Part shown: one piece after another, positions 25,841-64,000 of the stretch | Layout of the letters: every line of letters starts with the position of its first letter | Position numbering within the stretch: position 1 is the first letter of the stretch | Assembly (NCBI GenBank): GCA_039654915.1 | Contig: CM077599.1 | Location: 74,120,001 to 74,184,000, forward strand | DNA length: 64,000 bases | Direction: 5' to 3' | DNA from: Aquilaria yunnanensis | Lineage: Eukaryota > Streptophyta > Magnoliopsida > Malvales > Thymelaeaceae | Position numbers and translations under genes: made by a program | Notes under the pieces: model-generated | What the model was told of the DNA's origin: nothing | The model's input: only the letters and a program-made list of their open reading frames with translations | The model's database searches: none

Positions 25841-26070
25841 GTATAAACTTCCCCAGGCCAGGAATTCAAAACACAGGCGAAAACGAAAGACTGTGTCTTG
25901 TTCGGAGCTGATGATATAAAAAGCAAAAGAGAAACCAATTTACCTCGCAGCGTTGTAAAACCTTGCCATTTTGAGGGGTTCTTATTGTCTGGATTTTTGT
26001 GAGGTGGGTGCTTGGATTCACTCGTGTCAACTTGTTCTACCCGATTCCATCACATGGTCGCTTGGTGCTG

Positions 26071-29000
26071 ATGGGTTGCGTGACCTCGAAGCAGGCGGTG
26101 TTGGTGACGCCTGCAGTCGATCACTCCGGCGAAAATGGCACCAATTCGGGCCGCTCCCGGTTCGGTTACTCGGACCTCAAGAAGGAGCGGCCCAACGGGA
26201 GCAAGAAGAAGAAGAAGAGTGGCGGGGCAGCTAGCGAGCTAGGCGTTGGCTTGGGTGGTAGCGAGCTGGGTGAATCGGGTCGAGTGAGTTCCAGATCCGA
26301 GTCGATCAGCTTGCGGTTGGGGAATTTGAGCAAGTACATTGAAGTCGAGCAGGTCGCCGCTGGCTGGCCCGCTTGGCTCAGCGCCGTCGCCGGAGAGGCC
26401 ATCCACGGCTGGGTCCCGCTACGAGCTGACTCTTTCGAGAAGCTTGAGAAGGTTGGTTTATCCTTAGTTTAGATTGGCCTCGAGTTGATTTTGTCTTGTG
26501 GGTAATATTTGATTGGTAAAGATCATTTCTTCGTTTTCTTTTTTTTGTCATTTTTCTGATGGTTTCTGCTTTTGATTGGAAGCTTTTGTTTGTTGGAATG
26601 TGGCTTCTAGGCATTTGTTTAAACACCCATCCTTTGTTTTCTGCTCAAAATTTTGGAACGCAGTATATATATATATATATTTTTGTTTGTTTTCAGTTAC
26701 TTTGCAGAATTCTCTGCTTGTGTTCAGCTTCCTATACGTAGATTATAGTTCTATGAGATCCTGGTCCAAGTACACAACTTATGCTTGTGAATAGTTTTAT
26801 TTTATTTTGTTTTTTGTTTTGTTCTGTTTTTATCTTTTAGTTTTATTTCTGAACAAATGGGATCACTATGTTTTCAATTAACATTGAAGTTGTTAGAATG
26901 GAGCTTGAATTTTGGTTATGTGCCAGAAATAATAATATGCGGTAGCATTACATTGTTCACTACTCCTTTGACAGATTGGACAGGGCACATATAGCAGTGT
27001 GTTTCGAGCTCGAGATGTGGAAAGTGGGAGAATTGTTGCTCTGAAGAAGGTGAGATTTGACAATTTTGAGCCTGAAAGCGTTCGATTTATGGCGAGGGAA
27101 ATACTGATTCTGCGCAGGCTTGACCACCCAAACATCATAAAATTGGATGGAATAATAACTTCCCGACTGTCCTGTAGCATATACCTTGTGTTTGAATACA
27201 TGGAGCATGATATTACTGGACTTCTGTCCTGCCCTGAAATTAAGTTCACTGAGTCACAGGTATGTGCTTGCTTTCTGTGGAGTCCGCCAGTTCTTTAAGA
27301 TAATTGTGGAGATTGCATTTCACACGGATGTCCTTCTATATTCTTGCCAGTCAGAGATAAGAGCTATGCTATTGTGGTATAAATCAATGGAACACCTGAA
27401 TTTGCTAGATATCTTTCCTGGCATAAGATTTTACCACTGTTAGTGAGACATTGGTGGATGAGGAGAGGGAGACAAGAAGTAAACTCCATCTCATGGTTAT
27501 AGTTTTTGAAAGGGAAATTGCACATGGTGAATTAAATTTGTAATTTATTTTTTCTCCCGTCTTCAAAATGCCAAATGAAGCAACAACATATTTTTTTTAT
27601 CTTTTTGATTTCCAGATTAAGTGCTACATGAAGCAGCTATTAGCTGGCCTTGATCATTGTCACGCACGGGGTATAATGCACCGGGATATTAAAGGATCAA
27701 ATCTACTTGTAAATAATGAAGGAATCCTAAAGGTGGCTGATTTTGGTCTCGCGAACTTCTGTAGTTCTGGGCTCAAACAGCCACTAACAAGTCGTGTGGT
27801 GACATTATGGTACCGGCCTCCCGAACTTTTGCTTGGGTCTACAAATTATGGAGCAGCTGTGGACCTGTGGAGCGTTGGTTGTGTGTTTGCTGAACTACTA
27901 GTTGGGAAGCCTGCCCTCCAAGGGCGAACTGAGGTAAATATCATACTGAAATGCCCAGTTTTACATCCATGTGTGTCAATTGCTTGCTGATTCCGTCGAA
28001 GAACTTTCAATTAAATAAGTAAAATGCATAGATGAAATGCACACAAGATACTTTTTACTGCAATGAGCAGGCACAGGCTAATTGAACTTGCTATTGATGT
28101 AAAAGTTGCAATCTGGGAAAGGCTTAGCCAAAGCAAACTGACAAAGTTCAGGGTTGCCAATGCAGCGTCTGTCCACAAATATTCTTCACTGATCAATCAA
28201 CCACAGAAGTTAAAGATACAGCACCACAATCTAACACTTCTATTTGAGTCTGAACTAATTTGCATATTTTTCTAGAAGTTATGTCCTAAAGCTGTGGAAT
28301 ATCCCCCTTCTGTTGCCTTCTGAATGTTGATGCTTTATGTTAAAGCGATGAGAGTATAAGCATGCACATTATTTGCTTACAGTGTTGGAAAGACTAAGTA
28401 ATTGTAGTTTATGATTTGTGGTTACTTTCTTATGTTTCTATATTTCTTCTGAAGTCTTTATGAGTCTAGCTTAGATAAGGGATGGCAATTGGGTGTGTCA
28501 GGGCAAGTTTGGGTCAGATAATTCAGGTTTGAGTTTAATCGGGCTATCATGAATTCGGATCCATGTCGTGTTCATGTCGGGTTATTTGGGTTTAGGCTGA
28601 GTGGATTTCTGGTTTGGATTTAATGCAAATCCGGTCAGTCTCGGGTAGGGCTGTGAATGAACTGAATGAACACGAACGAGCTTTGTTCGTATTTGTGTGT
28701 TTATGTTTTAACTGAACACGAACAAGCTCTGTTCGTATTCGTTCATTCGTTTGGTGAATAAGGGTGTTCGTGCTTGTTCATGTTTGTTTGTGAACAATAA
28801 TAAAGAACCAAACGAATGAACATGTTCACAAACAATGTATATAAACAAGTTCGTGAACAATTTAAACAAACATAAACGAATATAAATAAATAAACTTAAA
28901 CAAATGAACACATATATAAACACAAACAAACATCACTTTGGTTTAAGTGACTAATGAAAACCTAAACTTGAAAAGGGGTAGGGATCACATGTGAATGGTC

Positions 29001-44301: not shown

Positions 44302-45497
44302 TTTCTACTCAAAAGTTGGACATGGCTAAAGCCTACGATCGAGCAGAGTGGTATTATTTAGAGGCTATCATGACTAAGTTGAAGTTTTCTAATTGTTTTG
44401 TATCTTTGAATCATGCAGTGCATCTTGTCAATGTCCTATTCGGTATGATTAATGGCAGTGCATATGGTGAAATTGTTCCTTAGAGAGGCTTAAGTAGGGG
44501 GACCCTATTTCATCGTGCTTATTTCTCTTGTGTGTCGAGGGTTTATTGGGGTTGCTCTGGCTAGCTTTACATCATGGTGTAATCTCAGGCATGCAAACAA
44601 ATATGTATGGACCAAAGGTCTATCATTTGTTATCTGCAGAAGATTGTATGGTTTTCTGTCTAGTGAATGTGTCAAAGAGGGAGGCGTTAAAATCTTTGCT
44701 CCACAAATACGAGAAGGCGTCGGGTCAATTAGTGAATAAGGAAAAGACTGGAACTTTTTGCATTTCAAATATAAGCATAGCTGATAGACAAGCTTTCTTT
44801 ATGTTATTTAGATCAGTGGAAGCTAAGCACATTGATGGATATTTTGGTCTCCTTTGCTCAATGGGGCGGAGGAAAAAAGAGGCTTTTAGCTTCCTATGGG
44901 ATAAGGTGGCCAAGGTGGTGAATGGGTGAAAGAATAAAATTCTTTCCCAAGCTGGTAAAGAAATTTTAATTAAATCGATTGCTTGTGCAATCCTTATCAT
45001 ATTATGGCGATCTTTAAAATCCTCATGGGGATATGGGATTCCACCAAGCCTATGCTGAATCATTTCTGGTGGTCACATATGGATAGGGGACATGGTATTC
45101 ATTGGAAGGCATGTGATGGTATGTTGGAAATGAAGGATGATAGAGGTATTGGTTTTCGAAAACTCTCCATCTTTAACCAGGCAATGCTTGTAAAGTAGTG
45201 GTGAAGATTGCTTTTGAATGATAAATCATTAGTTTTGAGAACCCTAAAAGCTAAATACTATGGTACCTCAAGCTTTCTTCTTGGTTGCAAACAGGACAAC
45301 TCTTCTTTCATTTGGCAGAGTATCTTGGAGGGGTAGGATTTGTTGAATTTGCGGTTTCATTGGAGATTAGGATCGTGGTTACAAGTGAGTGCTAGGGAGG
45401 ACCAATAGATCCTAGATGCTATTAATTTTCGGCCATCTTTTACTAAGCTATCCGTCAATTGCCCTTCTGTGAGCTTCTTTATTGATTTTGATCGAAG

Positions 45498-46051: not shown

Positions 46052-47453
46052 GATCGAGAACGTAAAGGCACTTAATAATTTTTTTTTTGCCCTTGATATC
46101 GTGCTTATTCAGAGGATCCCTTTATCAAATCTTCAAGGCAGGCATAGGCTCATTTGGCATTTTAACTCGAATGGTGAGTACTCTGTTAGCAGTGGCTCCC
46201 ACAGATTTATACAACTGAAAGAGGGGCTAGGAGTTACTTCATAGCACAAACAGGTGTGGAGGGAGGTTTGGGGTATGTCGGCCAGCAATAAGCTTAAGAA
46301 CTTTCTTTGGCCATTGGCTCATGATTGTCTCCCGACCCGCCAAAAGTTGATGATGAGACAAGTGCTTACAGATCCAATCTGCCCGTTGTGTGGAAGTGCA
46401 TTCGAGACTACCCTTCACACCATAAAGGATTGTTGGATGGTAAGGCCAGTTTGGTTTTCTTTTGGCTTGCGAGGCATTTGTGAGCTAGATCGGTCTTCGC
46501 CTATGGAGTGGTTAACTCAAATGGTAGCTAAAGGGGATGAGGTAAATTGGGTCCAGTGTGATGTTATTGCTAATGCCCTATAGATGAATTGGAATGAGGT
46601 GGTATTTGGCAAATGAAGGCTCTCTTTAGTTGTGCTGGATTGGAAGATCAAGAGAGACTTGAATGATGTAGCACTTTAGGTAGCCTTAGTCACTCCTACA
46701 AAACTGGTACAGCATTGGGTCCGGTCTCAGCAAGGATTCGTCGAAGTACACAGACGCTGCACGTGCTTTATCAGAGATAAAATGGGTTTGGGAGCGGTGA
46801 TCCTAGACCAAGAAGGTCAAGTGCTTATAGCCCGAGTAGCGCCAGGTGTTGGTATAATGAGTCCCTTCTACGGAGAGTGCTTGGCTGCACTTAATGGAGT
46901 CAAACTTGCCAAGGAGATGGGAGAGGAATGGATCATGCTTGAGATAGACGCGCTTCAGGTGGTGCAATCGATCAATGGTGATGCCCATTGCCTGTCGGAA
47001 GCTTTGGCATATGTTGTTGAAATCCAGTCCCCTCTATGCAGCTTTCAGGCATGGCAAGTGATCCAAGTTGGAAGACAAGCAAATTCAATTGCTCATCCTT
47101 TAGCTAAACATGGATTGTTTTTAAGCTCCTCTGTTCTTTGGTCCAAGTCGGACCTTCCAAGTTCTATCCAAAACTTGGTTGAACTAGTCTTAGCTTGTCA
47201 CTTTAATTGAGTCGTGCAATGAATACATATTCCATAAAAAAAAATACAAGAGTTTAAGAGATATTTATATATATAGGACCCAAAAGGGATGTAGGAAATG
47301 GAACCCTAACCTCCCCTTTATACCATCCCATGTCGTTTGTCACTTTACAAGTGGCATAAGACGAAATTAAAGAATTATTACTAAATATAATTGACAGAAA
47401 AAGTAACTGTTGTGACGTAAAAATATATTTAAAGGTAACCACTATATTAAATA

Positions 47454-51506: not shown

Positions 51507-52895
51507 AAAAGCTCATTGTTGTAATATCATGGAAAACATCCTTGGATAATTAGGAGGAGATAAAAACGATAGTTCTATATTTCTCAAATGGAAATTTTAA
51601 AAAGAAAGAAAACATCTTTTTTTTAAATAATAATAATAATAATAATAACAATAAATCAAAGTGCATAAGAAAAGTAAAAATCACACCACTATTTTGTCCA
51701 TGCTTCATCAATTTCATGAAAAACCTAGTTGCAGTGCACTCTTATAGAGACAAGAAATAGAATTCAATAAAAAGAAGGGTCATATAACATTTGTACACCC
51801 CATAAAGCAATCAAAACCTTTGCTAGAGGTGTACATGATGGTTTAACAACGCATTGGATTGAATTAGAGCTAGCCAGATTGTAGAAGCTTATTGACTTCT
51901 GTTAAATTTGTTGGCTCAAATTTAGGAAGTTTAAGGAATTTGATTTTGTCTAGGATTTAGTTTTAGCTTTCCTATTTGTTTAAGATTTAGTTTTCTTATT
52001 TAGATATTGTTTGGATTTGTGTGTGGCCTAAAAAAAGACTTGTTGTGTTAGGGTTTGAGTATGAGAGGAAAGTTAATGTGGTGAAGAGGTAAGTTGTGAG
52101 GATTTCAAAAGGGATAAGAAGTCTAAAGGCTGGAGAAAGCTAGGACAAAAAGCCTTTTATAATTCTCATATCATGTGTTCTGTGAGGGCAAAATATTAAG
52201 GTTATCAGCAGTATATGGGGGATCCACTACGGCATCCCTATGCCGCTTATGGCTGCTTATTGCCTAGGATAATTAGGAATTTGAAGAATCCCTGGGTTTT
52301 GGTTCGTAATTATTGATTTATTTGCTTATGATAAGAACTAATGCATGTGACCTAAGCTTACTAACCTAGATACTAGCATTAAAATGCATGAGTAGCTTCG
52401 GCATGAAAATTTAAACATAAATTGAAACATTCAAAACAGTGGCGGTACTGCACTTAAAAATAATTGTAAAACTAGCCAAAACCATAAACACATTTTCTAC
52501 AAGCAACAACCCTATTTACATTATTACTCAGCTATGTACATGAATCACAAATCAAAACACAAAACTAACCATTGTTGTTAGAGACATTTAGTACAATTAA
52601 GTACTCGAGCATAACCTATTGAGATGACTATACTAGGCTGACCACCTGAGCTCTACCTCTTAAGTGTCCATAGCCTCAACCTCCCCATTGTGCTCCTAGA
52701 TCAACCGCTGCTCATGGTTAATCCAACATAGTTAGTACATAACAAACCAATAAACCCGAAGACACAAACTAGCAAGTATAACTTGTACCTGCTTAACTAG
52801 CTCAACAACCATCTCAAGTTGCTGGCAGAATCACCCAAACCTGCACATATAAACTAAGTGCTGATAATCATAGATTCTCAGTACGAGGTCTTCAA
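51507..52895. other. Intergenic DNA with a possible LTR fragment
   Basis: About 51895-52165 reads like a Copia-type LTR (TGTTAAATTTGTTGGC start, TAGGATTTAGTTTT blocks, pyrimidine-poor U5-like tail), but no second LTR or primer-binding site is visible in the window. The remainder shows no gene. Confidence 0.35.
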
Positions 52896-53170
52896 AGGTG
52901 TGGCAACGTCGGGTTTTCGGGAGTCGCCACCAATCAGTTTACCTAGGTCGATTGGTCACCTTAAATATTGGTCTGCGAGAGTTCGGGGGTTCGGGAGTAC
53001 GGTTACGTTAAAACAACTTTGTTAAAACGCCCAAAAATTGGCACCTTAGTTGATTTTAATTTTGTTTCGCTTTGCTTTTAAATAAATTTCAGTTAATTTT
53101 CAATCTAGAATTTTTAACTGAATTAATCGGATGTGGATTTTTGGTAATTAATTTGTATAGAATTTTATAC

Positions 53171-53382
53171 TTCCGAACCATGGACTCTGCCGAGTCATTT
53201 GGACACGGAAGATTTTTATTCCGAACCATGGACTCTGCCGAGTCATTTGGACACGGAATTTGGTGAAAATTTTAATCCATATCGTAAAAATATGGATTTT
53301 TATCTTTTTATTTAATTTATTTATTTTGAAAGTTTGATATTTTCCAAACCGTAGATCCTGCTGGATCATCCGGATATGGAAA
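53171..53382 (+). repeat. Three related imperfect hairpins
   Basis: Hairpins at 53171-53210, 53219-53258 and 53341-53382 share the plan outer stem TTCCR...YGGAA, middle stem CCR...YGG, inner stem of five pairs and the loop TGCY. The first two have inner arms GACTC/GAGTC; the third has GATCC/GGATC with matching changes in the outer stems. No protein is encoded. They follow an 80-bp conserved-looking GC-rich segment (GTCGGGTTTTCGGGAGTCGC, about 52907) often seen in plant retroelement untranslated DNA. Confidence 0.75.
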
Positions 53383-53505
53383 TTACTTTAATTAATTGTT
53401 AGTTATATAATTATTATTTTTATGGAATTTATTATTACTAATTTGTAAGTCTTTTGTTTTTTAGATTTATTAATAATCTAAAAAATTTATTTTTTATTCT
53501 TTACA

Positions 53506-53755
53506 TTTTCTTTTCTTTTCTTTCTTTTCTTTCTTTCTTTTCTTTCTTTTTGATTTTATCTTTCTTTTAGTTTTATTTTTCCTTTCTTTTCTTTCTTTTC
53601 TTTTCTTTTCTTTTTCTTTTCTTTCTTTTCTTTATTTCTTTTCTTTTTTTATCTTTTCTTTTTCTTTTCTTTCTTTTCTTTCTTTCTTTTCTTTTTTTAT
53701 GTTTTTCTTATCTTTCTTATCTTTTTCTTATCTTTCTTTTAGTTTTTTTTAGTGA
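53506..53755 (+). repeat. TTTCT/TTTTC polypyrimidine microsatellite
   Basis: About 250 bp made almost wholly of TTTTCTTTC-type units. No coding capacity. Confidence 0.95.
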
Positions 53756-53984
53756 AAGTTATTTATTATTTAAATAATTATTCAATTTATAAAAGAAAAA
53801 ATAAAAATAATTGGCTTTTTAAAAAATTATTTTTATTAGGCTTAAAAAATAATCTTCTTTTAATTTTCATTTATTTATTTAAGTAAGGGTAAAGGTGAAT
53901 TAAATAAAAAAAATTATATAAAGGAAAATTAATAATAATAAAGTGGGGCTTTTTGGCCATCCACTTTAAAAATAAATAATAATA

Positions 53985-54500
53985 AAGGTTAGCAAAGTTA
54001 ATTAAATTAATTAACAACAATAATAAAAATTAGCCAAGTTTAATTAAATTAATTGATTAACAACAATAATAAAAAGTTAGTCAAGTTAATTAAATTAATT
54101 GATTAACAACAATAATAAAAAGTTAGTCAAGTTAATTAAATTAATTAATTAACAACAATAATAAAAAGTTAGTCAAGTTAATTAAATTAATTAATTAACA
54201 ACAATAATAAAAAGTTGGTCAAGTTAATTAAATTAATTAATTAACAACAATAAAAGTTAGCCAAGTTAATTAAATTAATTAATTAACAACAATAAAAGTT
54301 AGCCAAGTTAATTAATTAATTAATTAACAACAATAAAAGTTAGCCAAGTTAATTAATTAATTAACAAAAATAATAAAAAGTTAGACAAGTTAATTAAATT
54401 AATTAACAACAATAATAAAAAGTTAGCCAAGTTAATTAAATTAATTAATTAACAACAATAATAAAAAGTTAATTAATTGTTAACAACAATTATAAAAGTT
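53985..54500 (+). repeat. AT-rich minisatellite, about 11 copies of 42-47 bp
   Basis: Repeating TTAGCCAAGTTAATTAAATT followed by AATTAACAACAATAATAAAA. Copy length varies by loss or gain of AATT and ATA units. Confidence 0.95.
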
Positions 54501-55575
54501 AGTAATAATGCAAAAATTAAAAGGTTAGTAACAATAATAGTATTAAAAGTTAGTTGTTAGTAAGTTAATAACAACAATAAAAAAAGGGGTTAGTAATAAA
54601 CAAATAATAAACAAACAAGTAAAAATTAAAAGGGTTAGTAATTAATTCTGCAAGAACAAAATAAAAGGTTAGTGACCAAAGTGAAAGAAAATTGAAAAGA
54701 TGAAGGATTAAATGAGAGTTGTACCCTTAAAAACTGAATTTGAAATTCTGGAAACGTGAAGAACAGAACGCACGCGCGCGGGGGGAGAGAAAAAAAAGAA
54801 AAAAAAAAAAAAAAGGGTCAGAGAAGGTTTAGGTTTTCTGGAGAGGAAGAGAAGAGGGCCAGGGACCTAGGCTATAATTTTTTTTTTTTTCAAAACGGAG
54901 CTCTAAGCTTCATTTCTATTTTTTTTCTGTGTTCAGCACAAAATTTGGGGGGCTATTTATAGAAGAAGTTTAGCTGAACTGTTGATGGATAAATTAATAA
55001 AAAATTTCAAACTTATCTCTTAAATTGGTAAAATGACAATTTTAGTCCTTTACGTCTCTCAGCCTCTGGATAAGTTCCTGAAGCTTCTGATTTTGACAAT
55101 TTTGTCGTTTTCTGTCAATTTGAGCCAAAAACGTCGGCAGGCTCAAAATTTTATGTGACAAACTACCAAATGCTCCTGGAACTTTTAGAATTTGTCAATT
55201 TTTTCCGAAACTTCTCAATTTTGTCATTTTTACCTCAAACTTTTAATTTTTTGTCATTTTTTTCATGAAATTTTATTTTATTTCAAACATACACATATTC
55301 ACACATATATCATTTTAAATCAAATTTTCACAAAACAAAAATATATTTTAAACTAATTAAATTTTTTTTAATAATAATAGTAATATATTTTTTTTTTAAA
55401 TTAATTTTTTTTTTTTAATAAAATTTTTTTCAAAATTTTAAAACACCCGGACGAAATTGGGTGTCAACAGCTGCCCCCCTTTGCATGCTTCATGGGACAT
55501 GATGTATGCAAAGTCGTTACCAAATTTCGTCCGGCTTAGGTAGGCATTGAGAATGTTCTCGCCGCCCAAACAGTA
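54501..55575. other. AT-rich spacer leading into the hairpin array
   Basis: A-rich and T-rich runs and eroded minisatellite. The segment at 55440-55560 (ACGAAATTGGGTGTCAACAG, then CTGCCCCCCTTTGCATGC) resembles noncoding parts of large plant LTR retrotransposons. I recognise no ORF product. Confidence 0.4.
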
Positions 55576-55827
55576 AGGTTTAAGGAAAGGTCCTTAAAAC
55601 ATCTAACGATAGGAAAGCTCCTATTGTTGTAAGATGGACTGATTGATTGATTGATGTTTGAGGTTAAGGAAAGGTCCTTAGAACCTCTAACGATAGGAAA
55701 GCTCCTATCGTTGTAAGATGGACTGATGGATTGATTGTTTGTTTTAGGTTAAGGAAATGTCCTTAGAACCTCTAACGATAGGAAAGCTCCTATCGTTGTA
55801 AGATGGACTGATTGATTGATTATTTGT
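55576..55827 (+). repeat. Three tandem copies of a two-hairpin unit (about 85-90 bp)
   Basis: Each unit has GAGGTTAAGGAAAGGTCCTT followed by AGAACCTC (stem GAGGTT/AACCTC and AAGGA/TCCTT) and AACGATAGGA-AAGC-TCCTATCGTT, a perfect ten-pair stem (G:T in copy 1). Units are separated by GTAAGATGGACTGATTGATT. Confidence 0.9.
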
Positions 55828-57905
55828 TTTCGAGGCAAAGGTTCCATCCTTAAAACCTCGGATTGATTGATTGATCTCGAGGCAAAGGTTCCATCCTTAA
55901 AACCCCGGATTGATTGATTGATATCGAGGCAAAGGTTCCATCCTTAAAACCTCGAATTGATTGATTGATGTCGAGGCAAAGGTTCCATCCTTAAAACCTC
56001 GGATTGATTGATTGATCTCGAGGCAAAGGTTCCATCCTTAAAACCCCGGATTGATTGATTGATCTCGAGGCAAAGGTTCTATCCTTAAAACCTCGGATTG
56101 ATTGATTGATCTCGAGGCAAAGGTTCCATCCTTAAAACCCCGGATTGATTGATTGATCTCGAGGCAAAGGTTCCATCCTTAAAACCTCGAATTGATTGAT
56201 TGATGTCGAGGTAAAGGTTCCATCCTTAAAGCCTCGAATTGATTGATTGTTTTCGAGGCAAAGGTTCCATCCTTAAAACCTTGATGATGAAAATTGATTA
56301 TTTTCGAGGCAAAGGTTCCATCCTTAAAACCCCGATGATGAAAATTGATTATTTTCGAGGCAAAGGTTCCATCCTTAAAACCCCGAATTGATGAAAATTG
56401 ATTGTTTTCGAGGCAAAGGTTCCATCCTTAAAACCCCGATGATGAAAATTGATTCTTTTCAAGGCAAAGGTTCCATCCTTAAAACCCCGATGATGAAAAT
56501 TGATTATTTTCGAGGCAAAGGTTCCATCCTTACAACCCCGATGAAAATTGATTGTTTTCGAGTCAAAGGTTCCATCCTTAAAACCCCGATGATGAAAATT
56601 GATTATTTTCGAGGCAAAGGTTCCATCCTTAAAACCCCGATGATGAAAATTGATTGTTTTCGAGGCAAAGGTTCCATCCTTAAAACCCCGATGATGAAAA
56701 TTGATTGTTTTCAAGGCAAAGGTTCCATCCTTAAAACCCCGATGATGAAAATTGATTGTTTTCGAGGCAAAGGTTCCATCCTTAAAACCCCGATGATGAA
56801 AATTGATTCTTTTCGAGGCAAAGGTTCCATCCTTAAAACCCTGATGATGAAAATTGATTGTTTTCGAGGCAAAGGTTCCATCCTTAAAACCCCGATGATG
56901 AAAATTGATTATTTTCGAGGCAAAGGTTCCATCCTTAAAACCCCGATGATGAAAATTGATTATTTTCGAGGCAAAGGTTCCATCCTTAAAACCCCGGCGA
57001 TGAAAATTGATTGTTTTCGAGGCAAAGGTTCCATCCTTAAAACCCCGGCGATGAAAATTGATTCTTTTCAAGGCAAAGGTTCCATCCTTAAAACCCTGAT
57101 GATGAAAATTGATTATTTTCGAGGCAAAGGTTCCATCCTTACAACCCCGATGATGAAAATTGATTATTTTCGAGGCAAAGGTTCCATCCTTAAAACCCCG
57201 AATTGATGAAAATTGATTGTTTTCGAAGCAAAGGTTCCATCCTTAAAACCCCGATGATGAAAATTGATTCTTTTCAAGGCAAAGGTTCCATCCTTAAAAC
57301 CCTGATGATGAAAATTGATTATTTTCGAGGCAAAGGTTCCATCCTTACAACCCCGATGAAAATTGATTGTTTTCGAGGCAAAGGTTCCATCCTTAAAACC
57401 CCGATGATGAAAATTGATTGTTTTCGAGGCAAAGGTTCCATCCTTAAAACCCCGATGATGAAAATTGATTGTTTTCGAGGCAAAGGTTCCATCCTTAAAA
57501 CCCCGATGATGAAAATTGATTATTTTCGAGGCAAAGGTTCCATCCTTAAAACCCCGATGATGAAAATTGATTATTTTCGAGGCAAAGGTTCCATCCTTAA
57601 AACCCCGATGATGAAAATTGATTGTTTTCGAGGCAAAGGTTCCATCCTTAAAACCCCGATGATGAAAATTGATTATTTTCGAGGCAAAGGTTCCATCCTT
57701 AAAACCCCGATGATGAAAATTGATTATTTTTGAGGCAAAGGTTCCATCCTTAAAACCTCGGATTGATGAAAATTGATTGTTTTCGAGGCAAAGGTTCCAT
57801 CCTTAAAACCTCGGATTGATGAAAATTGATTATTTTCGAGGCAAAGGTTCCATCCTTAAAACCCCGATAATGAAAATTGATTTTGAGGCTAAGGAGCTTT
57901 CCTTA
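55828..57905 (+). repeat. Tandem array of about 40 copies of a 47-51-bp hairpin unit
   Basis: The first roughly nine units (to about 56270) are 47 bp with GATTGATTGATYTCGAGGC. The later roughly 30 are 51 bp, with GATGATGAAAATTGATTGTT then TTCGAGGCAAAGGTTCCATC then CTTAAAACCCC. Each contains TCGAGG-CA-AAGG-TTCCAT-CCTT-AAAA-CC(T/C)CG, able to fold as a small stem-loop. Because 51 is divisible by three and units lack stops, frames of 272, 176 and 240 codons stay open on both strands. They are not genes. Confidence 0.95.
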
Positions 57906-58429
57906 GGACATCGAGCGAAATTTATATGAAAGCAATTGAAATTGGAATAATTTTCTTCGAAAGTGTGAATTTTCATAATAGGCGAGCGCAAAGAATTAGG
58001 CTTCGATAAAACGAGTGAATCTTAATGATGACAATAACCCTGACAAATTATGTAAGGGGAACGGATGTTTGGAATCAATATCCAAGGTTCATCTAATATT
58101 TTCTTCAGTAAATATAGATTCCCTTGTGAGATATGTCATCCAAATAAGGTCAAAGCTTAACTACCCCAAAATGTTATGCCTAGTAGACCTAATAGGATGC
58201 GTCTCAAGAGTAATAAAAATTACTCTTTACTCAGCCATTCCAACCTAAAGGCATTGTCGCATGGTTTTAATATCAGCATGGACGAAACTATATTATAAGA
58301 TAACGAAATTTCCTGAAAAGAAAAACTGAAATACGAAAGAAAATGCTGATAATTAAAACGAAAGGACAAGAAAAACGGATCAGATCGCTTCTTCTTCCAC
58401 AATGCTTCAACAGGCCGGGTAAAGGACAA
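57906..58429. other. Downstream flank of the LOG-like pseudogene
   Basis: Starts with a last divergent hairpin (CTAAGGAGCTTTCCTTAG, 57889-57906). A 77-codon plus-strand frame (58015-58248) has ordinary composition but no recognised domain; I do not call it a gene. Confidence 0.45.
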
Positions 58430-59059
58430 TTATGGGAGTGAACTGGTCGGGAAAGACTGTCGTGTCCAGTCTATTTGGATCATTGCTGGATCTGGTTCAG
58501 GAACAAAAGCTTCCATTTTATCTAGCAATTCTTCAGCAGTTGTTGCGGATATTATGATTCGTCGTGCCACCTCAGGGATAAACTTCTGCTTCACAGCACG
58601 ATTCATAAAAGATAATAGACCTGCGAAGAAATAGTTAACATTTAACAGCCCAATGGGTTTTTGATGCAAATTAAGTTGGGCCATGGAAGCGATTTGGAAG
58701 ACTTCTCCTAATGTGCCAAAGCCACCTGGTAGAGCGATAAAAGCATCAGCATTAAAAAGCATTTGTAACAAACGCTATTGCAGATTTTTAACCACTAGCT
58801 CTTCTCCAATTGTGCCCCCAGAAACCGATTTCAGAGATGCAGGGATAATACCCAGAACCTGGCTTCCTCCTAAAGATGCTGCTGATGCTACAGCTCCCAT
58901 TAATCCGACATTACCTCCTCCATAAACTAAGTGTATTTTTTGCTCAGCTAATACACTACCCAAATGGTTGGCTGCCTTTAAGTACTCTTCATCTTCTCCA
59001 GGAAAAGCTCCAGAAAATACACAAATACTTCGGGATTTACGAGTGGAGGTTTTCTCCAT
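58430..59059 (-). pseudogene. LOG-like cytokinin riboside 5'-monophosphate phosphoribohydrolase, one in-frame stop
   Basis: The frame starts ATG at 59059 (MEKTSTRKSRSICVFSG) and is open for 94 codons. It meets TAG at 58775-58777 and continues in the same frame to the TGA ending at 58430, for 209 codons in all, the normal LOG length. Visible LOG features are the nucleotide-binding VYGGGNVGLMGAVA (about 45-58), the catalytic-site motif PGGFGTLGE (111-119), and GLLNVNYF in the C-terminal half. Active LOG enzymes release free-base cytokinins from their nucleotides. The stop falls inside the motif normally written MHxRKxxM: the Arg is kept but the Lys is Leu. Plant LOG genes usually have several introns; this copy has none, so it may be a retrocopy, an intronless subfamily member or a captured gene. 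Its promoter matches those of the zinc-finger genes upstream. Either a recent pseudogene or a gene depending on stop read-through; I favour pseudogene. Confidence 0.8.
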
Positions 59060-59098
59060 TCCTATCCTTACCCATGTGAGAAAAGAAGAAAAGAGGAT

Positions 59099-59108
59099 AT
59101 ATTTATAG
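59099..59108 (-). promoter_or_regulatory. TATA box of the LOG-like copy
   Basis: CTATAAATAT on the minus strand, preceded by TTTCATCT, about 40 nt upstream of the ATG, predicting a very short leader. The context matches the TATA boxes at 60089 and 60875. Confidence 0.7.
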
Positions 59109-59170
59109 AGATGAAAAGATAAAGTAATAATTTTATTTTCAAGAATGGATACATTATTGCCAGCTATTCA

Positions 59171-59440
59171 CAGTAGTCACAAGTATGACTCTGGTCAGGT
59201 ATGGGCACACTATCGTTAAAAGAGGAGGAAAATTTCAAAAGCAACTAGCATACACAGTAGTCACTACTGTAGCTTACGTCAGGAGTAGGTACGTGATTGT
59301 TGAAAGAGAAGGAAAATTTCAAAAGTAGCTGCTATATATAGTAGTCATAACTGTATCTCATGTCAGGAGTGGGTACATTATTGGGAGGATAATTTCAAAA
59401 GCGACAGCTAGCATGTACAGTAATCGTGACTTTGGTTCAT
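59171..59440 (-). promoter_or_regulatory. Four 84-bp direct repeats upstream of the LOG-like copy, one with an as-1-type TGACGTAAGC
   Basis: Copies begin near 59171, 59255, 59339 and 59418 (CAGTAGTCAC-like), with conserved GAAAATTTCAAAAG and GGGTACATTATTG blocks. The second contains CAGTAGTCACTACTG, a 15-bp palindrome (59255-59269), and on the minus strand TGACGTAAGC (59272-59281), the core of as-1/TGA-factor sites known from plant viral promoters. The fourth copy merges with the 3' flank of the neighbouring zinc-finger gene. Confidence 0.6.
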
Positions 59441-59482
59441 GTCTTCCACTGATTTTGCATCCAGTAACGGCTTCAATGCCTT

Positions 59483-60031
59483 CTATGAATTGGCGATTTG
59501 CATCCCATCTAGCTTTTTCACAAACTGGCAAACAGGGTCGTTTAGGGTTAGATTCCCAAGACTGTAACGTTCTCGTTCTTTTTGGAGAATTATCCATAAT
59601 CCAACAACCTCAAATTGCACTATTCCGCAAGAATGCGCTTCAAGAACCTCTCGGATATCTTCTAGAGATTTCTTACGCAAGCCATTATTAATGAATCTTA
59701 TTCTATCATTACGATTTCTGGTGATCACTCCTGGAGAACGACATTTATTGCCGCAAATCCACCATCCACAATTATGACAAACGCCTAGCCTCTTTGCTCT
59801 TCTTTTTTTGGCATAAGCGCTTTTACCAAAGCCGGGCATACGGGGAAAGAACGCTTCTGGAACTTCACCAGCTGAACGAACCTTAGCTTCAATTAGCCAC
59901 CGCACATTATCAGGAATGCCTTTGTGCATAAATACTCTGAATCGTTCACATCTAGCTTGATAAATCTTTTTAAGAACATTTATTGGGAAGGAAGGAAAAT
60001 ACTTTCGTAGGGCGGAAAGAGAAGACTCCAT
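59483..60031 (-). CDS. Zinc-finger, basic-patch protein copy 1 (virus NABP-like), 182 aa
   Basis: Intact frame. The start at 60031 (MESSLSALRKYF) aligns with copies 2 and 3; an upstream ATG at 60046 would add five residues. The predicted amphipathic N-terminal region (1-60) precedes GFGKSAYAKKRRAKR (67-81), a basic patch followed at once by C85-x2-C88-x4-C93-x3-C97, a likely zinc-binding site. A charged helical region (105-182) contains HSCG and SLGNLTLNDPVC. The pairing of GxGKSxYAKxRRAKR with a cysteine finger recalls the small nucleic-acid-binding/silencing-suppressor proteins of Betaflexiviridae (carla-, viti- and mandariviruses). Those are shorter, and the flanking parts here are not familiar to me. 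Tandem with copies 2 and 3, same strand. Function is unknown; RNA or DNA binding is inferred. It may be an endogenous viral gene or a plant gene with the same motif. Confidence 0.75.
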   Translation of the reverse strand: MESSLSALRKYFPSFPINVLKKIYQARCERFRVFMHKGIPDNVRWLIEAKVRSAGEVPEAFFPRMPGFGKSAYAKKRRAKRLGVCHNCGWWICGNKCRSPGVITRNRNDRIRFINNGLRKKSLEDIREVLEAHSCGIVQFEVVGLWIILQKERERYSLGNLTLNDPVCQFVKKLDGMQIANS

Positions 60032-60088
60032 TGATGAAGGAGGCAAAGAAAGAAATCAGTGATTGTAGGAAACGAAAATAACTAACAC

Positions 60089-60098
60089 ATATTTATAG
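60089..60098 (-). promoter_or_regulatory. TATA box of zinc-finger copy 1
   Basis: CTATAAATAT on the minus strand, preceded by CCCTTTCATCA, about 58 nt before the ATG at 60031. Upstream, ACATTATTG and CACTTAC blocks match copy 2, and ACATTATTG also matches the LOG-like promoter. Confidence 0.7.
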
Positions 60099-60247
60099 TG
60101 ATGAAAGGGATAATGCGTTAATTACACTTACAGAAGCAAGTACATTATTGTCAAAAGAAAAGACAAATGACAGCTTATATGTACAGCAATCATGACTGTG
60201 GCTCTCATCTTCCACTGATTTATATCTAGTAATGGCTTCAATGCCTT

Positions 60248-60796
60248 CTATGAGTCGAGGACTTGCTTCCTATCCAGTTTTCTTACAAGCTGGCAGACAG
60301 GGTCGTTTACAGTCACATTCCCAAGACTGTAACGGTCTCGTTCTTTATGGTAAGTCCTCCACAATTTGACAATTTGACCTTGCACTTTTCCACAAGAATG
60401 CGTTTCAAGAGTCTCTCGGATATCTTCCAGAGATTCCTTACGCAGGCCATTCTTAATGAATTTTCTTTTATCTTCACGATTTGTGGAGATGTATCCTAAA
60501 GAGCGACATTTAGTATTACAATTCCATCGCCCACATTTATAACACACGCCTAGTCTCTTTGCTCTTCGCCTTTTGGCATAACGGCTTTTACCTAAACCGG
60601 GCATGCGGGGCATAAATGCATCTGGAACTTCACCCGCCAGACGGACCTTAGCTTCAATTATCCACTGCACATTATCGGGAATGCCTTTGCGTGTAAAAAC
60701 TCTGATTCTTTCACATCTAGCAAGGTAGATCTTTTTAAGGACTTTTATTGGAAGGGAAGGAAAGTATTTTCGCAGTGCTGAAAGAGTAGAATCCAT
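60248..60796 (-). CDS. Zinc-finger, basic-patch protein copy 2 (virus NABP-like), 182 aa
   Basis: Intact 182-codon frame, MDSTLSALRKYF to VLDS. The layout is identical to copies 1 and 3 with no indel: basic patch GLGKSRYAKRRRAKR (67-81), cysteines 85, 88, 93 and 97, then NREDKRKFIKNGL (106-118) and ETHSCG (131-136). By hand count it differs from copy 3 at about 52 of 182 residues (about 71% identity), yet all cysteines, the basic patch and length are kept. This argues for selection on the protein. It has its own TATA box at 60875-60884 and a conserved 3' flank (CTTCCACTGATTTATATC). It is the best-formed unit of the array. Nucleic-acid binding is inferred from the motif; partners and expression are unknown. 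Confidence 0.78.
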   Translation of the reverse strand: MDSTLSALRKYFPSLPIKVLKKIYLARCERIRVFTRKGIPDNVQWIIEAKVRLAGEVPDAFMPRMPGLGKSRYAKRRRAKRLGVCYKCGRWNCNTKCRSLGYISTNREDKRKFIKNGLRKESLEDIRETLETHSCGKVQGQIVKLWRTYHKERDRYSLGNVTVNDPVCQLVRKLDRKQVLDS

Positions 60797-60874
60797 TGAT
60801 GAGAGAAGAATTTGAGAGATGATGGAAAGGAATTAGTTATTGAAGGAAACTTAGATAACCGACTGGAAGAACAT

Positions 60875-60884
60875 GCATTTATAG
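60875..60884 (-). promoter_or_regulatory. TATA box of zinc-finger copy 2
   Basis: CTATAAATGC on the minus strand, in the context CATTTCATCG-CTATAAATGC, about 80 nt upstream of the ATG. It sits at the same relative place as in copy 1 and the LOG-like copy. Confidence 0.7.
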
Positions 60885-61042
60885 CGATGAAATGGATAAC
60901 GTGTCGATTACACTTACGGGAGCAAATACATTATTAAAAGAAAAATGGAAAATTTTAAATATGATAAATTGTATGTACAGTGATTGTGACTGTGGCTCAC
61001 ATCTTCCACTGGTTTTACGTCCAGTAACGGGATTAATGGCTT

Positions 61043-61591
61043 CTATGAGTCGAGGATTTGCTTCCCATCCAGTTTTCTAACAAGCTGACAAATAGGGTCG
61101 TTTAACGTCAGATTCCCGGGACTGTATCGTTCTCGTTCTTCATGAAAAATGCTCCACAAACCAAGTAGTTCACGTTGCACAGATCCACAAGAATGCGTCT
61201 CAAGAGTCAATTGGATATCATCCAACGAGTCTTTACTCAAGCCATTCTTAATGAATCGTATTTTATCTTCTCGATTATCAGAGATCATCCCTAAAGAACG
61301 ACATTTAGTATTACAAGTCCACCGTCCACATTTATGGCAGACTTGTAACCTTTTCGCTCTTCGCTTTTTGGCATAAGAGCTTTTGCCTATACCAGGCATG
61401 TGAGACACAAATGCCTCTGGGATTTCACCTGCCAGACGAACCTTGGCTTCGATTAACCACCGCACATCTTCAGGGATTCCTTTGTGCATCAGAACTCTTA
61501 ATCGTTCACAGCGAACTTGGTAGATCTTTTTGAGGATGTTCATTGGGAGAGAAGGGAAATACTTTCGCAAGGCGGAAAAAGTAGGATCCAT
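61043..61591 (-). CDS. Zinc-finger, basic-patch protein copy 3 (virus NABP-like), 182 aa
   Basis: Intact frame, MDPTFSALRKYF to ILDS, with GIGKSSYAKKRRAKR (67-81), cysteines 85, 88, 93 and 97 and ETHSCG (131-136). It is upstream-most on the minus strand. Its leader resembles copy 2 for about 50-60 bp (AGTTATTATGGGCAACTGAG, ACCGACTTGAG), but then diverges, and the TATA block shared by the other units is missing. This copy may therefore lie at the edge of the amplified array and use another promoter or be silent. Spacing between the stop codons of the three copies is 765 and 795 bp. Family remarks are as for copy 1; I cannot name a characterised plant relative. Confidence 0.75.
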   Translation of the reverse strand: MDPTFSALRKYFPSLPMNILKKIYQVRCERLRVLMHKGIPEDVRWLIEAKVRLAGEIPEAFVSHMPGIGKSSYAKKRRAKRLQVCHKCGRWTCNTKCRSLGMISDNREDKIRFIKNGLSKDSLDDIQLTLETHSCGSVQRELLGLWSIFHEERERYSPGNLTLNDPICQLVRKLDGKQILDS

Positions 61592-61760
61592 TTTCTAGGA
61601 GGAAGTAAAAGAAAGAAGGGGTGAAGGAATCAGTTATTATGGGCAACTGAGAGAACCGACTTGAGAGTCACGGAGTACCGTATCCGCCGTTTAACCGGAA
61701 AAGTAGATCCTACTTCATTTTGATAGATATATTTTTTTTTTTATCCGTTGATCCAGTCCT

Positions 61761-62115
61761 CGATTATTGAATCCATTGTCCGCTTTTGACAAAGTTTCAA
61801 CGACAATATTTCTTGATGTCTGCCTTATCTTTGACCACAGCTATCTCTTATCTTGGATGCTGCTAAGCTGGCATCAATCCTGTCCTTCCAGGTGTAGCCT
61901 CGATTATTGAATCAATTGCCAAGCTTTTGACAATATTGTCTACTTTATCCTTTTTTATATCTGCCTTATCCTTGGCTATAGCTATCTCTTATTTTGGATA
62001 CTACTAGTTGATGTCAATCCTGTCCTTCCAGGTGTAGTCTCGATTATTGAATCAATTGCCAGGCTTTTGACATATTGTCTACCTTATCCTTGAATTCCTG
62101 ATGCGGGTTGGTCCC
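61761..62115 (-). repeat. 140-bp tandem repeat, about 2.5 copies
   Basis: CGATTATTGAATCMATTG begins at 61761, 61901 and 62041, an exact 140-bp period. Copies share CTTTTGACA, TGCCTTATC, GCTATCTCTTAT and CAATCCTGTCCTTCCAGGTG. On the minus strand short stretches read like charged coding sequence (DKADIKKDKVDNIVKSLA), but stops intervene. It lies about 170 bp upstream of zinc-finger copy 3. Confidence 0.85.
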
Positions 62116-62399
62116 GCATATTAGCTGTGTATCCAGTGATAGATTGGTAAGAGCTGATATTATTGAGATCTCAGCTTATACTGCTGTAACGGTGCGGTGG
62201 ATGTGTTTCCCATTTGATTCCTATCGTGTAAAAATCATGCATGCATGATGTGAAATGCATGAATGCAAAGCATGTGTAATTGATGGTTCTTTTTTTTTTT
62301 ATTTATTTTTATATTTATTTTTTTATTTTTTATTTTTTTTGGATTGATCTAGTTCTTCATATCTTTGCTTTACTGGATCCTCTTTATAATTGTCTTCTT

Positions 62400-63110
62400 G
62401 GACTATCATTGAATCTCTTTATGCTTTCCAGCTTTTGTTCACTGCCTCAAAAGCCCAACTCTTTTCAAAATCCCCTTTCTTTGACTTGTTCTTGAATTTT
62501 GGCCTCAATTTCTTTAAAGTTGGCCCGCCTCATAATTTATATCTCTTTCGGGTACTCATCCATTGTCATGGATTTGATACCATCAAAGGCTTTACTTTCA
62601 ATGTCTGCTTTGCCCATTTTCTTCTGGCCGTGCGGACACTTTTTTACCCCCATGTTACAGTCCAAATAATTGCTCTTCCTTAGACTCAGGTTCTGATCCA
62701 TAAGACTTGCCCCCTTGTCTATTGAGCTTCTTTCTTGGCAGTACTTTTCTTGCGCTTAGTAGAGACTACTTTGCCCCCTTGATTATGGTGTTTATGTGGA
62801 AAGAGATATCATCTCGCCTTTGATTTAACAGAAGGTTGAGGATTTCTAGACCTTTGTGATGGCACTTGATCGTAAATTTCTCTTACAAGAACCACATCTT
62901 ATTAAAGAAAGACTCAAGCTATCTCCTTACTTTTAAGTCTACATACATTAATGAATAATGGTTTGGCCTTAAAGAAAAACTTTCATCAATTTTCAAAGCT
63001 TGACAAAGTAATTTACGGTCTTTGTTTTCAATTAAAATGTCCTGCCATTCTTCCCTTTCCAACTCGAAGACATAAACTGTGCAAGGCAATAAGGTAGAAA
63101 CATGATTCAC
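62400..63110 (-). pseudogene. Decayed coding-like sequence, unidentified
   Basis: On the minus strand, 63110-62919 is open for 63 codons with protein-like composition (VYVFELEREEWQDILIEN, RPNHYSLMYVDLKVRR). From about 62720 to 62400 the same strand gives charged segments (RKVLPRKKLNRQGGK, GSEPESKEEQLFGL, SMTMDEYPKEI, FKEIEAKIQEQ) interrupted by stops and frame changes. This looks like the remains of one or more proteins upstream of the zinc-finger genes on their strand. I recognise no family. It could equally be retroelement gag-like debris. Confidence 0.3.
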
Positions 63111-63118
63111 AATAATAG

Positions 63119-63275
63119 CCTTTTAACTGAATGAGGATGATATCGAGAGGTAAATGTTAGGTGTGAGGAAAGTTAAGTTTGAATGTTTTTTTTTTTTTTG
63201 TGGCAGTCTTTTAGCTGAATGAGAATGATATTAAGAGGTAAATATTAGGTCTGAATAAAGTTAAGTTTGAGTGGT
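63119..63275 (+). repeat. Direct duplication, period 88 bp
   Basis: CTTTTARCTGAATGAGRATG and GTTAAGTTTGARTG blocks occur at about 63119-63185 and 63207-63275, separated by a poly-T run. Confidence 0.8.
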
Positions 63276-63589
63276 GTGAAAGAAGGGTCTTTTAATACTA
63301 CTCGTGAGCAAATTTGATTATGGTGAAAAACTCAATAGTGATGACCTCAAACTTGCCACTCTTTCCAGAAAGTTAGACCTCATCTGTTGCCCCCCAACTA
63401 TTGTGATCTTTATGCATGCTTGGTTTGAGGGTTGCTTTTGTATTCTAAACTGCCTTTGCAGGTTTTCAGTCTAGAATCCATAGCTCACTTTTTTTCTTTT
63501 TTTTTTTTTCTAGTTTGAGCCCTTTTTCCTCTTTTTTTTTTTTTTGTTTTTTTTTTGTTTCCCCTTTTTTTTTTTTGTGAGCTATGGTG

Positions 63590-63910
63590 ATGACATACTT
63601 GATAACTCTCTTGAAGTGAGATGACTCAAGTGGCCTTGCTTGCTCATGCTTGTTCTCAGTCCTTTTTGGTTTTGAATTTTCCCTTGTTGTCTTTTGATGG
63701 AAAGGATGAATTTCTCTTTTCGGAGTTTGTGTTGCAAAGAACTGAGATCATAGCCCTCTTGAAGTGAAATGATTAAAGTGGCTTTAGTTGCTTGTGTTTG
63801 CTCTCTGTCTCTTTTTTTTGTTTTTGAATTTTCCCTTTAATGGCTTTTGATGGAAGGGATGAACTTCTTTCCTTTGTTGGAATTTGTGTTGCGGAAAACT
63901 GAGAATCTTT
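63590..63910 (+). repeat. Two tandem copies of a 148-bp unit with T-rich tracts
   Basis: CTCTTGAAGTGARATGAYT at 63607 and 63755. Both copies continue through TTGAATTTTCCCTT, TTTTGATGGAARGGATGAA and TTTGTGTTGCRRARAACTGAG. Long T runs lie before (63486-63575) and after (63908-63922). No gene is seen to the window end. Confidence 0.85.
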
Positions 63911-64000
63911 TTTTTTTTTTTTGTATTGAGCATTTGTGAGAATTGGGAGGCCACTGAAGTCATTTAATATGAGAGCTACTTTGTTTGGAAACTAACCCCA

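Follow-up and report, generated by a model that had tools for sequence, protein, structure and literature searches.

Betaflexivirus-type nucleic-acid-binding protein genes, triplicated and joined to a LOG gene, in a young, high-copy retrotransposon of Aquilaria yunnanensis that lacks pol

A 64,000-nucleotide stretch of DNA from Aquilaria yunnanensis (assembly GCA_039654915.1, contig CM077599.1; C7:74120001-74184000, hereafter the window) contains three tandem genes whose products resemble the small nucleic-acid-binding proteins (NABPs) of the RNA virus family Betaflexiviridae. The question raised by this locus is how such genes came to lie in a plant chromosome and what they might do there. 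The initial annotation suggested that an RNA-virus gene had been endogenised, had gained a promoter and had been amplified or, alternatively, that the genes belong to a plant family with the same zinc finger. Analysis of the surrounding DNA and of relatives elsewhere gives good support, based on element structure and selection, to the view that the cluster is a virus-type gene which is carried by retrotransposons, and which was triplicated and joined to a LONELY GUY (LOG) gene in a young, high-copy element that lacks pol.

The three NABP-like genes, designated c1, c2 and c3, had been described as minus-strand frames of the same length (182 codons) in repeat units of 765 and 795 bp, and open reading frame (ORF) analysis bore out the lengths, the spacing and the absence of stops and indels. 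The proteins are about 70% identical to one another (c1/c2, 130/182; c1/c3, 128/182; c2/c3, 129/182), which agrees with the earlier hand count of about 29% difference between copies 2 and 3, and the genes differ from each other at 110-135 of 549 nt. A basic patch and the four-cysteine finger C-x2-C-x4-C-x3-C are present in all three, as had been noted. Viral_NABP (PF05515; E 8e-6 to 3e-8) and Carla_C4 (PF01623) score above the Pfam gathering score in 3/3 window proteins, and the likeness to betaflexivirus NABPs that the initial annotation had proposed is therefore, judging by these profile scores, not due to chance. The best Viral_NABP match, that of c2, spans residues 34-121 and reaches well past the finger. 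Of the 62 family members aligned, a set that includes the three window proteins, 59 give a Viral_NABP match and 58 a Carla_C4 match at E <= 0.01. The window proteins share with the NABPs or cysteine-rich proteins (CRPs) of Betaflexiviridae a basic patch followed by a four-cysteine cluster and a Pfam match of about 90 residues. They differ in being 182 aa long, which is longer than the named viral proteins retrieved by Foldseek, and in possessing additional conserved N- and C-terminal parts, and their genes lie in a retrotransposon and not, as in betaflexiviruses, at the 3' terminus of the viral genome.

The cluster is enclosed by a long terminal repeat (LTR) retrotransposon of about 17.36 kb which extends from position 52899 past the end of the window (Table 1). 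The two LTRs are 2570-2571 bp long and differ by one gap and no substitutions; the sole mismatch of the aligned block lies just beyond the LTR. The element is flanked by a target-site duplication (TSD), a primer-binding site (PBS; TTGGCGACTCCGCTGGGGA) directly follows the 5' LTR, and a polypurine tract (PPT; AAAGGGGGGCAGC) directly precedes the 3' LTR. A tRNA-Arg(ACG) gene of the source genome has a 3' end complementary to the PBS (two pattern matches, one of them called as a tRNA). Besides the PBS, the remainder of the internal region (C7:74184001-74187690) carries gag (PF03732, E 4.2e-12), which contains one in-frame stop in the window's copy and one in a copy on C1 and is open in a copy on C3 (L012). 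Comparison of the window with the C1 and C3 copies revealed repeated sequence at both ends, the far end of the C3 copy lying outside the compared stretch, and the C1 copy has the TSD CTTGC on both sides. No pol was found in 15/15 copies by tblastn with a 466-aa RNase H-integrase query taken from locus L001 (see below); reverse transcriptase itself was not probed, and 12 of the 15 copies were searched only across the 8.5 kb upstream of c1. These features show an element that consists, in this order, of an LTR, gag, the three NABP-like genes, LOG, the tandem repeats, the PPT and a second LTR, and that lacks pol.

These boundaries bear on the possibility that the host domesticated an RNA-virus gene which had inserted at a single locus and had been duplicated on the spot. 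The Viral_NABP likeness, the genes' own promoters and the purifying selection described below would all fit such a history. However, the cluster is surrounded by LTRs, TSD, PBS, PPT and gag, and at least 150 copies are spread over C1-C9 and a small contig, so that one-locus domestication is extremely improbable, and it was rejected for this locus on the strength of the element boundaries. The earlier proposal of an endogenised, amplified gene with a promoter thus holds with respect to amplification and to the TATA-like boxes (c2, 18/20 copies; c3, 20/20), but not with respect to domestication at a single host locus, as the genes are cargo of an element.

A search of the source genome with c1 gave 8441 first-look candidates, the best 150 of which were scored, so that 150 is a lower bound on the number of copies and the sample favours open frames. 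Every one of the 150 scored copies is full length, lacks stops and is 98-100% identical, 57 of them (the window's copy included) encode an identical protein, and they are distributed over C1-C9 and one small contig of the 842-Mb genome. For LOG, the best 150 of 3661 candidates were scored; all were full length (one to residue 208 of 209) and 97-100% identical, with 135 lacking a stop and 15, the window's among them, having an internal stop. Recent insertion of the window's element and a high copy number are shown by the LTRs and by these searches. In 20 other copies taken from the 150 best-scoring c1 copies, open frames number 20 for c1, 19 for c2 and 17 for c3; LOG was found in 19 of these stretches and is open in 15 of the 19. 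Among the 12 copies that were searched for pol upstream of c1, the longest match to the window's LTR is 79-99% identical, and gag and the LTRs vary far more than c1 does, a contrast that is partly built in because the copies were picked by c1.

The purifying selection suggested by the initial annotation is apparent from ratios of nonsynonymous to synonymous substitutions (dN/dS) well below 1: 0.27 for c1/c2, 0.19 for c1/c3 and 0.36 for c2/c3, with upper 95% bounds of 0.43, 0.30 and 0.57, respectively. In simulations without selection, both lineages of a pair from c1-c3 stay open in 0.3-0.9% of cases. The corresponding figure for the two LOG lineages is 8%, and an open LOG frame alone therefore says little. 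Pooled ratios of nonsynonymous to synonymous polymorphism (pN/pS) among up to 21 copies, the window's included, are 0.15 for c1, 0.47 for c2, 0.25 for c3 and 0.27 for LOG (upper bounds 0.37-0.69), where gapped rows were excluded (2/21 for c3), LOG is missing from one copy, and the c1 value is biased low by the choice of copies, a bias which linked genes may partly share. Taken together, these ratios show, at the level of sequence comparison, purifying selection on the four cargo genes.

Alternatively, the cargo could consist of passenger genes caught by chance, which are open only since the copies are recent. Near-identical LTRs imply recent copies that would stay open regardless, and decay is tolerated within the family: LOG has stops in 15/150 scored copies, c3 is broken in 3/20, and of the 12 copies just mentioned only 2 have an open, full-length gag, 9 have a partial or broken one and 1 has none that could be detected. 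However, c1-c3 have diverged to the extent given above without acquiring a stop or an indel, all four genes have a pN/pS far under 1, even though only c1 and none of c2, c3 and LOG had served as the query, and the upstream TATA-like boxes have been retained. Moreover, a length of about 182 codons has been kept across most of 61 aligned members at 51-64% identity to c2. Chance passengers are quite improbable.

Each of the cargo genes appears to have its own upstream signal. TATA-like boxes precede c2, c3 and LOG at positions that recur among the other copies, where they were counted within 110 nt of the start. No TATA-like box occurs within 140 nt of the c1 start; c1 is preceded instead by a leader which is common to the window's element and to elements that carry both pol and a NABP-like gene (L001 and L047-L050). 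Downstream of the c1 stop codon is a stretch of about 63 nt which is conserved after c2 and c3 and in L001. Neither the leader nor the post-stop stretch has RNA structure beyond chance. Four annotated relatives (P0024, P0103, P0106 and P0112) have read-through or shifted-frame tails that extend into the conserved post-stop stretch.

LOG, an intronless gene directly downstream of c3 on the same strand, belongs to the product class of cytokinin riboside 5'-monophosphate phosphoribohydrolases. An in-frame TAG truncates the window's LOG ahead of a conserved arginine, and the identical broken gene occurs at one other copy (C4:75907215). Within the Lysine_decarbox domain, the catalytic PGGxGTxxE motif of LOG and the conserved arginine are kept in 6 of the 7 LOG proteins compared (L015, L016, L020, L021, L022 and L030), while in L034 one glycine of the motif is changed. 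In the window's family LOG lies beside NABP-like genes, and annotated Citrus (P0106) and Rhamnella (P0078) proteins contain both in fused form, though these proteins may be gene-model fusions of neighbouring genes. Among the LOG pieces of P0106, P0078 and the window's family, best local alignments give a likeness of 38-49%; to Arabidopsis LOG3 the likeness of each piece is 46-53%. Because the LOG parts are no closer to one another than to LOG3, LOG may have been captured repeatedly and independently in these three settings.

The source of the NABP-like genes is suggested by their relatives. Protein searches at E limits of 0.01, 0.001 and 0.1 gave 113, 277 and 678 relatives, respectively. At least 273 are distinct, and all that bear a name (most do not) are from plants, namely Xanthoceras, Acer, Rhamnella, Parasponia, Citrus, Orobanche and Striga. 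No virus-named protein occurs among the 113, the best 120 of the 277 or the best 120 of the 678, although the remainder may include viral proteins, and no relative was found in viral contigs. Among 105 listed family proteins of 170-200 aa, the finger is present in 89 and the basic patch in 93. A cluster of NABP-like proteins from Orobanche gracilis (P0077) represents 109 member sequences, a size that may reflect amplification in a parasitic plant too.

A scan of genome contigs with the NABP-like gene yielded a single locus, L001, on the 3.3-kb contig DAIEQH010000041.1, which is binned with a Candidatus Nomurabacteria assembly and which, by its content, is plant retrotransposon DNA contaminating a prokaryote genome collection. 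L001 encodes an integrase (PF00665, PF17921) followed 204 nt later by a complete NABP-like gene (Viral_NABP over the cut-off, Carla_C4 slightly under it) and then by the purine tract TTTAAGTTGGGGGGTAAGG. Rhamnella protein P0064 is a fusion of a NABP-like gene with the terminal part of an integrase frame, the latter matching L001 at 70% identity across 111 residues. When the source genome was searched with pol, the best 91 of 26992 candidates were scored, and the twelve best are 66-72% identical, all with stops. Four of the 91 (L047-L050), picked by pol rather than by NABP and not an independent sample, all have a NABP-like gene that follows the pol match at a distance of 210-240 nt and shares 69-80% identity with c1; it is open in L048 and broken in L047, L049 and L050. 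The dN/dS values of c1 against L048, L047 and L001 are 0.20, 0.17 and 0.16. From these data we infer that an autonomous Ty3/Gypsy lineage in which the NABP gene forms a 3' extra ORF has a long history and a wide distribution in plants. The suggestion of a plant family with the same finger is partly borne out by the names of the relatives; in L001 and in L047-L050 such a gene lies behind a Ty3/Gypsy pol. In a FastTree tree of 116 proteins, c1-c3 form a clade (support 98) with two sequences of the source genome and two relatives, and triplication was therefore local to the A. yunnanensis lineage; long branches outside this clade make other details of the tree unsafe.

The direction of transfer could have been from elements to viruses, with plant retrotransposons as the source from which betaflexiviruses acquired the NABP gene. 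The size and diversity of the non-viral family, seen in its number of distinct members and in the tree, speak for this direction. The viral proteins are diverse too, however, betaflexiviruses accounting for 24/39 viral Foldseek matches (assigned by virus name), and the element-to-virus direction is possible, if somewhat doubtful.

Extra ORFs are well known in plant Ty3/Gypsy elements (PMC7264820, PMC6317226, PMC11963269, PMC11728184). Antisense extra ORFs are described as having no similarity to other elements or viruses and as being mostly of unknown origin (PMC7264820). Likened by features, Athila/Tat (OTA) elements with an aORF or eORF between pol and the 3' LTR resemble the elements described here in having a gene behind pol (L001, L047-L050), tandem repeats ahead of the 3' LTR, a tRNA-Arg primer and a large internal region (see PMC6317226, PMC11963269, PMC7264820). 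The window's family differs from them in that its extra ORF is RNA-virus-like, pol is lacking and three NABP-like genes and LOG are present in sense orientation. LTR elements of Citrus sinensis, C. clementina and Populus trichocarpa contain a LOG (YgdH) domain (PMC9289625, citing Steinbauerova 2011) and thus likewise have LOG as cargo; NABP is unmentioned there. Orchid Ty3/Gypsy elements carry an N6-methyladenosine (m6A) demethylase closest to human and Arabidopsis RNA demethylases (PMC9289625), a different protein which is alike in being an extra functional gene of a kind used by flexiviruses. Insect retrotransposons with helicase domains of plus-strand RNA viruses have been reported, with weak silencing-suppressor activity (PMC6338049; further helicases in PMC4686597 and PMC5563155), as has a nematode retrotransposon that took up a nodavirus-like element (PMC5177903). 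These cases also involve RNA-virus-type sequence in a retrotransposon but are from animals and concern a helicase in LINE (long interspersed nuclear element) ORF2 or a nodavirus-like element. The sole plus-strand virus case that Chiba 2011 describes is a sequence in cucumber which resembles a betaflexivirus replicase (PMC3136472). Among the open-licence papers listed by the literature searches, supplements excluded, none was found to report an LTR retrotransposon with a Viral_NABP-type gene.

Plant transposable elements are controlled mainly through small-RNA silencing, and to our knowledge few plant elements have a counter-defence. The window's element is probably a non-autonomous element of Ty3/Gypsy type which carries LOG and NABP cargo that blunts silencing, and which is copied in trans. 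According to this scheme, the NABP gene would have resided first in autonomous elements, from which a cassette with its leader and 3' region moved into an element without pol. There the cassette would have been triplicated and promoters and LOG would have been acquired, and copying would proceed via reverse transcriptase and integrase supplied in trans. The NABP-like proteins would use their basic patch and four-cysteine finger to bind RNA and would dampen RNA silencing by the host, a role modelled on the CRPs of two carlaviruses, potato viruses H and M. LOG would raise active cytokinin locally and so favour dividing cells, in which new copies are inherited.

The homologous protein of Potato virus H (PVH) suppresses local silencing, and that of Potato virus M (PVM) is stated to do likewise (PMC3689765). 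In contrast, p12 of CVB failed to suppress locally induced silencing and is reported to be a plant transcription factor that causes hyperplasia (PMC3689765). It is possible, then, that the NABP-like proteins are transcription regulators or nucleic-acid chaperones which, together with LOG, push the cell towards growth. The properties of p12 fit this alternative, as do the proximity of LOG and NABP-like genes in the window's family and their fusion in P0106 and P0078, with the caveat on gene models given above; the suppressor activity of the related PVH and PVM proteins stands against it, and it is considered unlikely.

Several other points, like the failure of p12, weigh against the silencing-suppressor scheme. 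RNA binding, silencing suppression and LOG activity are all carried over from relatives, and the finger is shorter than the C-X2-C-X9-C-X4-C of PVH, the one virus compared. The predicted structure is weak (pLDDT 65.5), and a Foldseek search with this predicted fold gave no viral match at E 0.001, the top viral entries being mostly betaflexivirus NABPs or cysteine-rich proteins, none of them significant. Stops interrupt LOG in 15 of the 150 scored copies, the window's being one of them, and gag is decayed in most of the 12 copies described above. Pol was probed solely with the RNase H-integrase query, and no partner element supplying pol was identified. The genome matches are the best-scoring ones, which favours open frames, and the pN/pS values carry the sampling bias described above.

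If the proteins are suppressors, retrotransposons and plus-strand RNA viruses share, and have exchanged, one weapon. The proposed mechanism, if true, would help to explain the high copy number of a large non-autonomous element and would assign a function to one group of extra ORFs that reviews describe as being of unknown role. If LOG, a cytokinin-activating enzyme, is a recurrent cargo of retrotransposons, the conflict would also have a hormonal side. A bolder extension, which is tentative and rather unlikely in its full form, is that a lineage of plant LTR retrotransposons carried an RNA-virus-type suppressor during a large part of eudicot evolution, and that in the descendant without pol the three copies, each with a promoter or leader, form with LOG a transferable host-manipulation cassette that moves between families as a unit, weakening silencing and sustaining division. 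For annotators there is a warning: the name 'Viral nucleic acid binding' on a plant protein can conceal a gene that belongs to a retrotransposon.

Table 1. Coordinates of the retrotransposon and its cargo (window positions unless prefixed by C7)
Feature	Position	Strand	Remarks
Target-site duplication, CCTTT on minus strand	52894..52898	.	twin at C7:74190261-74190265
3' LTR, TG...CA ends	52899..55469	minus	paired with 5' LTR
Polypurine tract ahead of 3' LTR	55470..55482	minus	
Internal region, window part	55483..64000	minus	remainder in L010
41 copies of 51-nt tandem repeat, LOG to 3' LTR	55824..57882	minus	
LOG, 209 codons + stop	58430..59059	minus	PF18306, PF03641
TATA-like box of LOG, -48 to ATG	59101..59107	minus	19/19 copies: -48 or -40
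84-nt tandem repeats between c3 and LOG	59163..59383	minus	
NABP-like gene 3 (c3), 182 codons	59483..60031	minus	ORF, Pfam; other copies
TATA-like box of c3, -66 to ATG	60091..60097	minus	20/20 copies: -66, -87 or -104
NABP-like gene 2 (c2), 182 codons	60248..60796	minus	ORF, Pfam; other copies
TATA-like box of c2, -87 to ATG	60877..60883	minus	at -87 in 18/20 other copies
Conserved stretch 3' of c1 stop codon, ~63 nt	60980..61042	minus	
NABP-like gene 1 (c1), 182 codons	61043..61591	minus	ORF, Pfam, dN/dS, genomic copies
c1 leader, ~110 nt	61592..61702	minus	
140-nt tandem repeats upstream of c1	61758..62091	minus	
5' LTR, outside window	C7:74187691-74190260 (L010 3691-6260)		pairing with 3' LTR

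The 51-nt repeats contain long open frames on both strands, which are most likely repeat artefacts and not genes. Elsewhere in the window, by eye, an ORF at 14846-15298 resembles the C-terminal end of a hAT transposase, and ORFs at 44498-44929 and 46680-47210 resemble remains of a LINE reverse transcriptase and RNase H. ORFs within 25975-27990 appear by eye to be parts of a plant protein kinase gene, likely an ordinary host gene.

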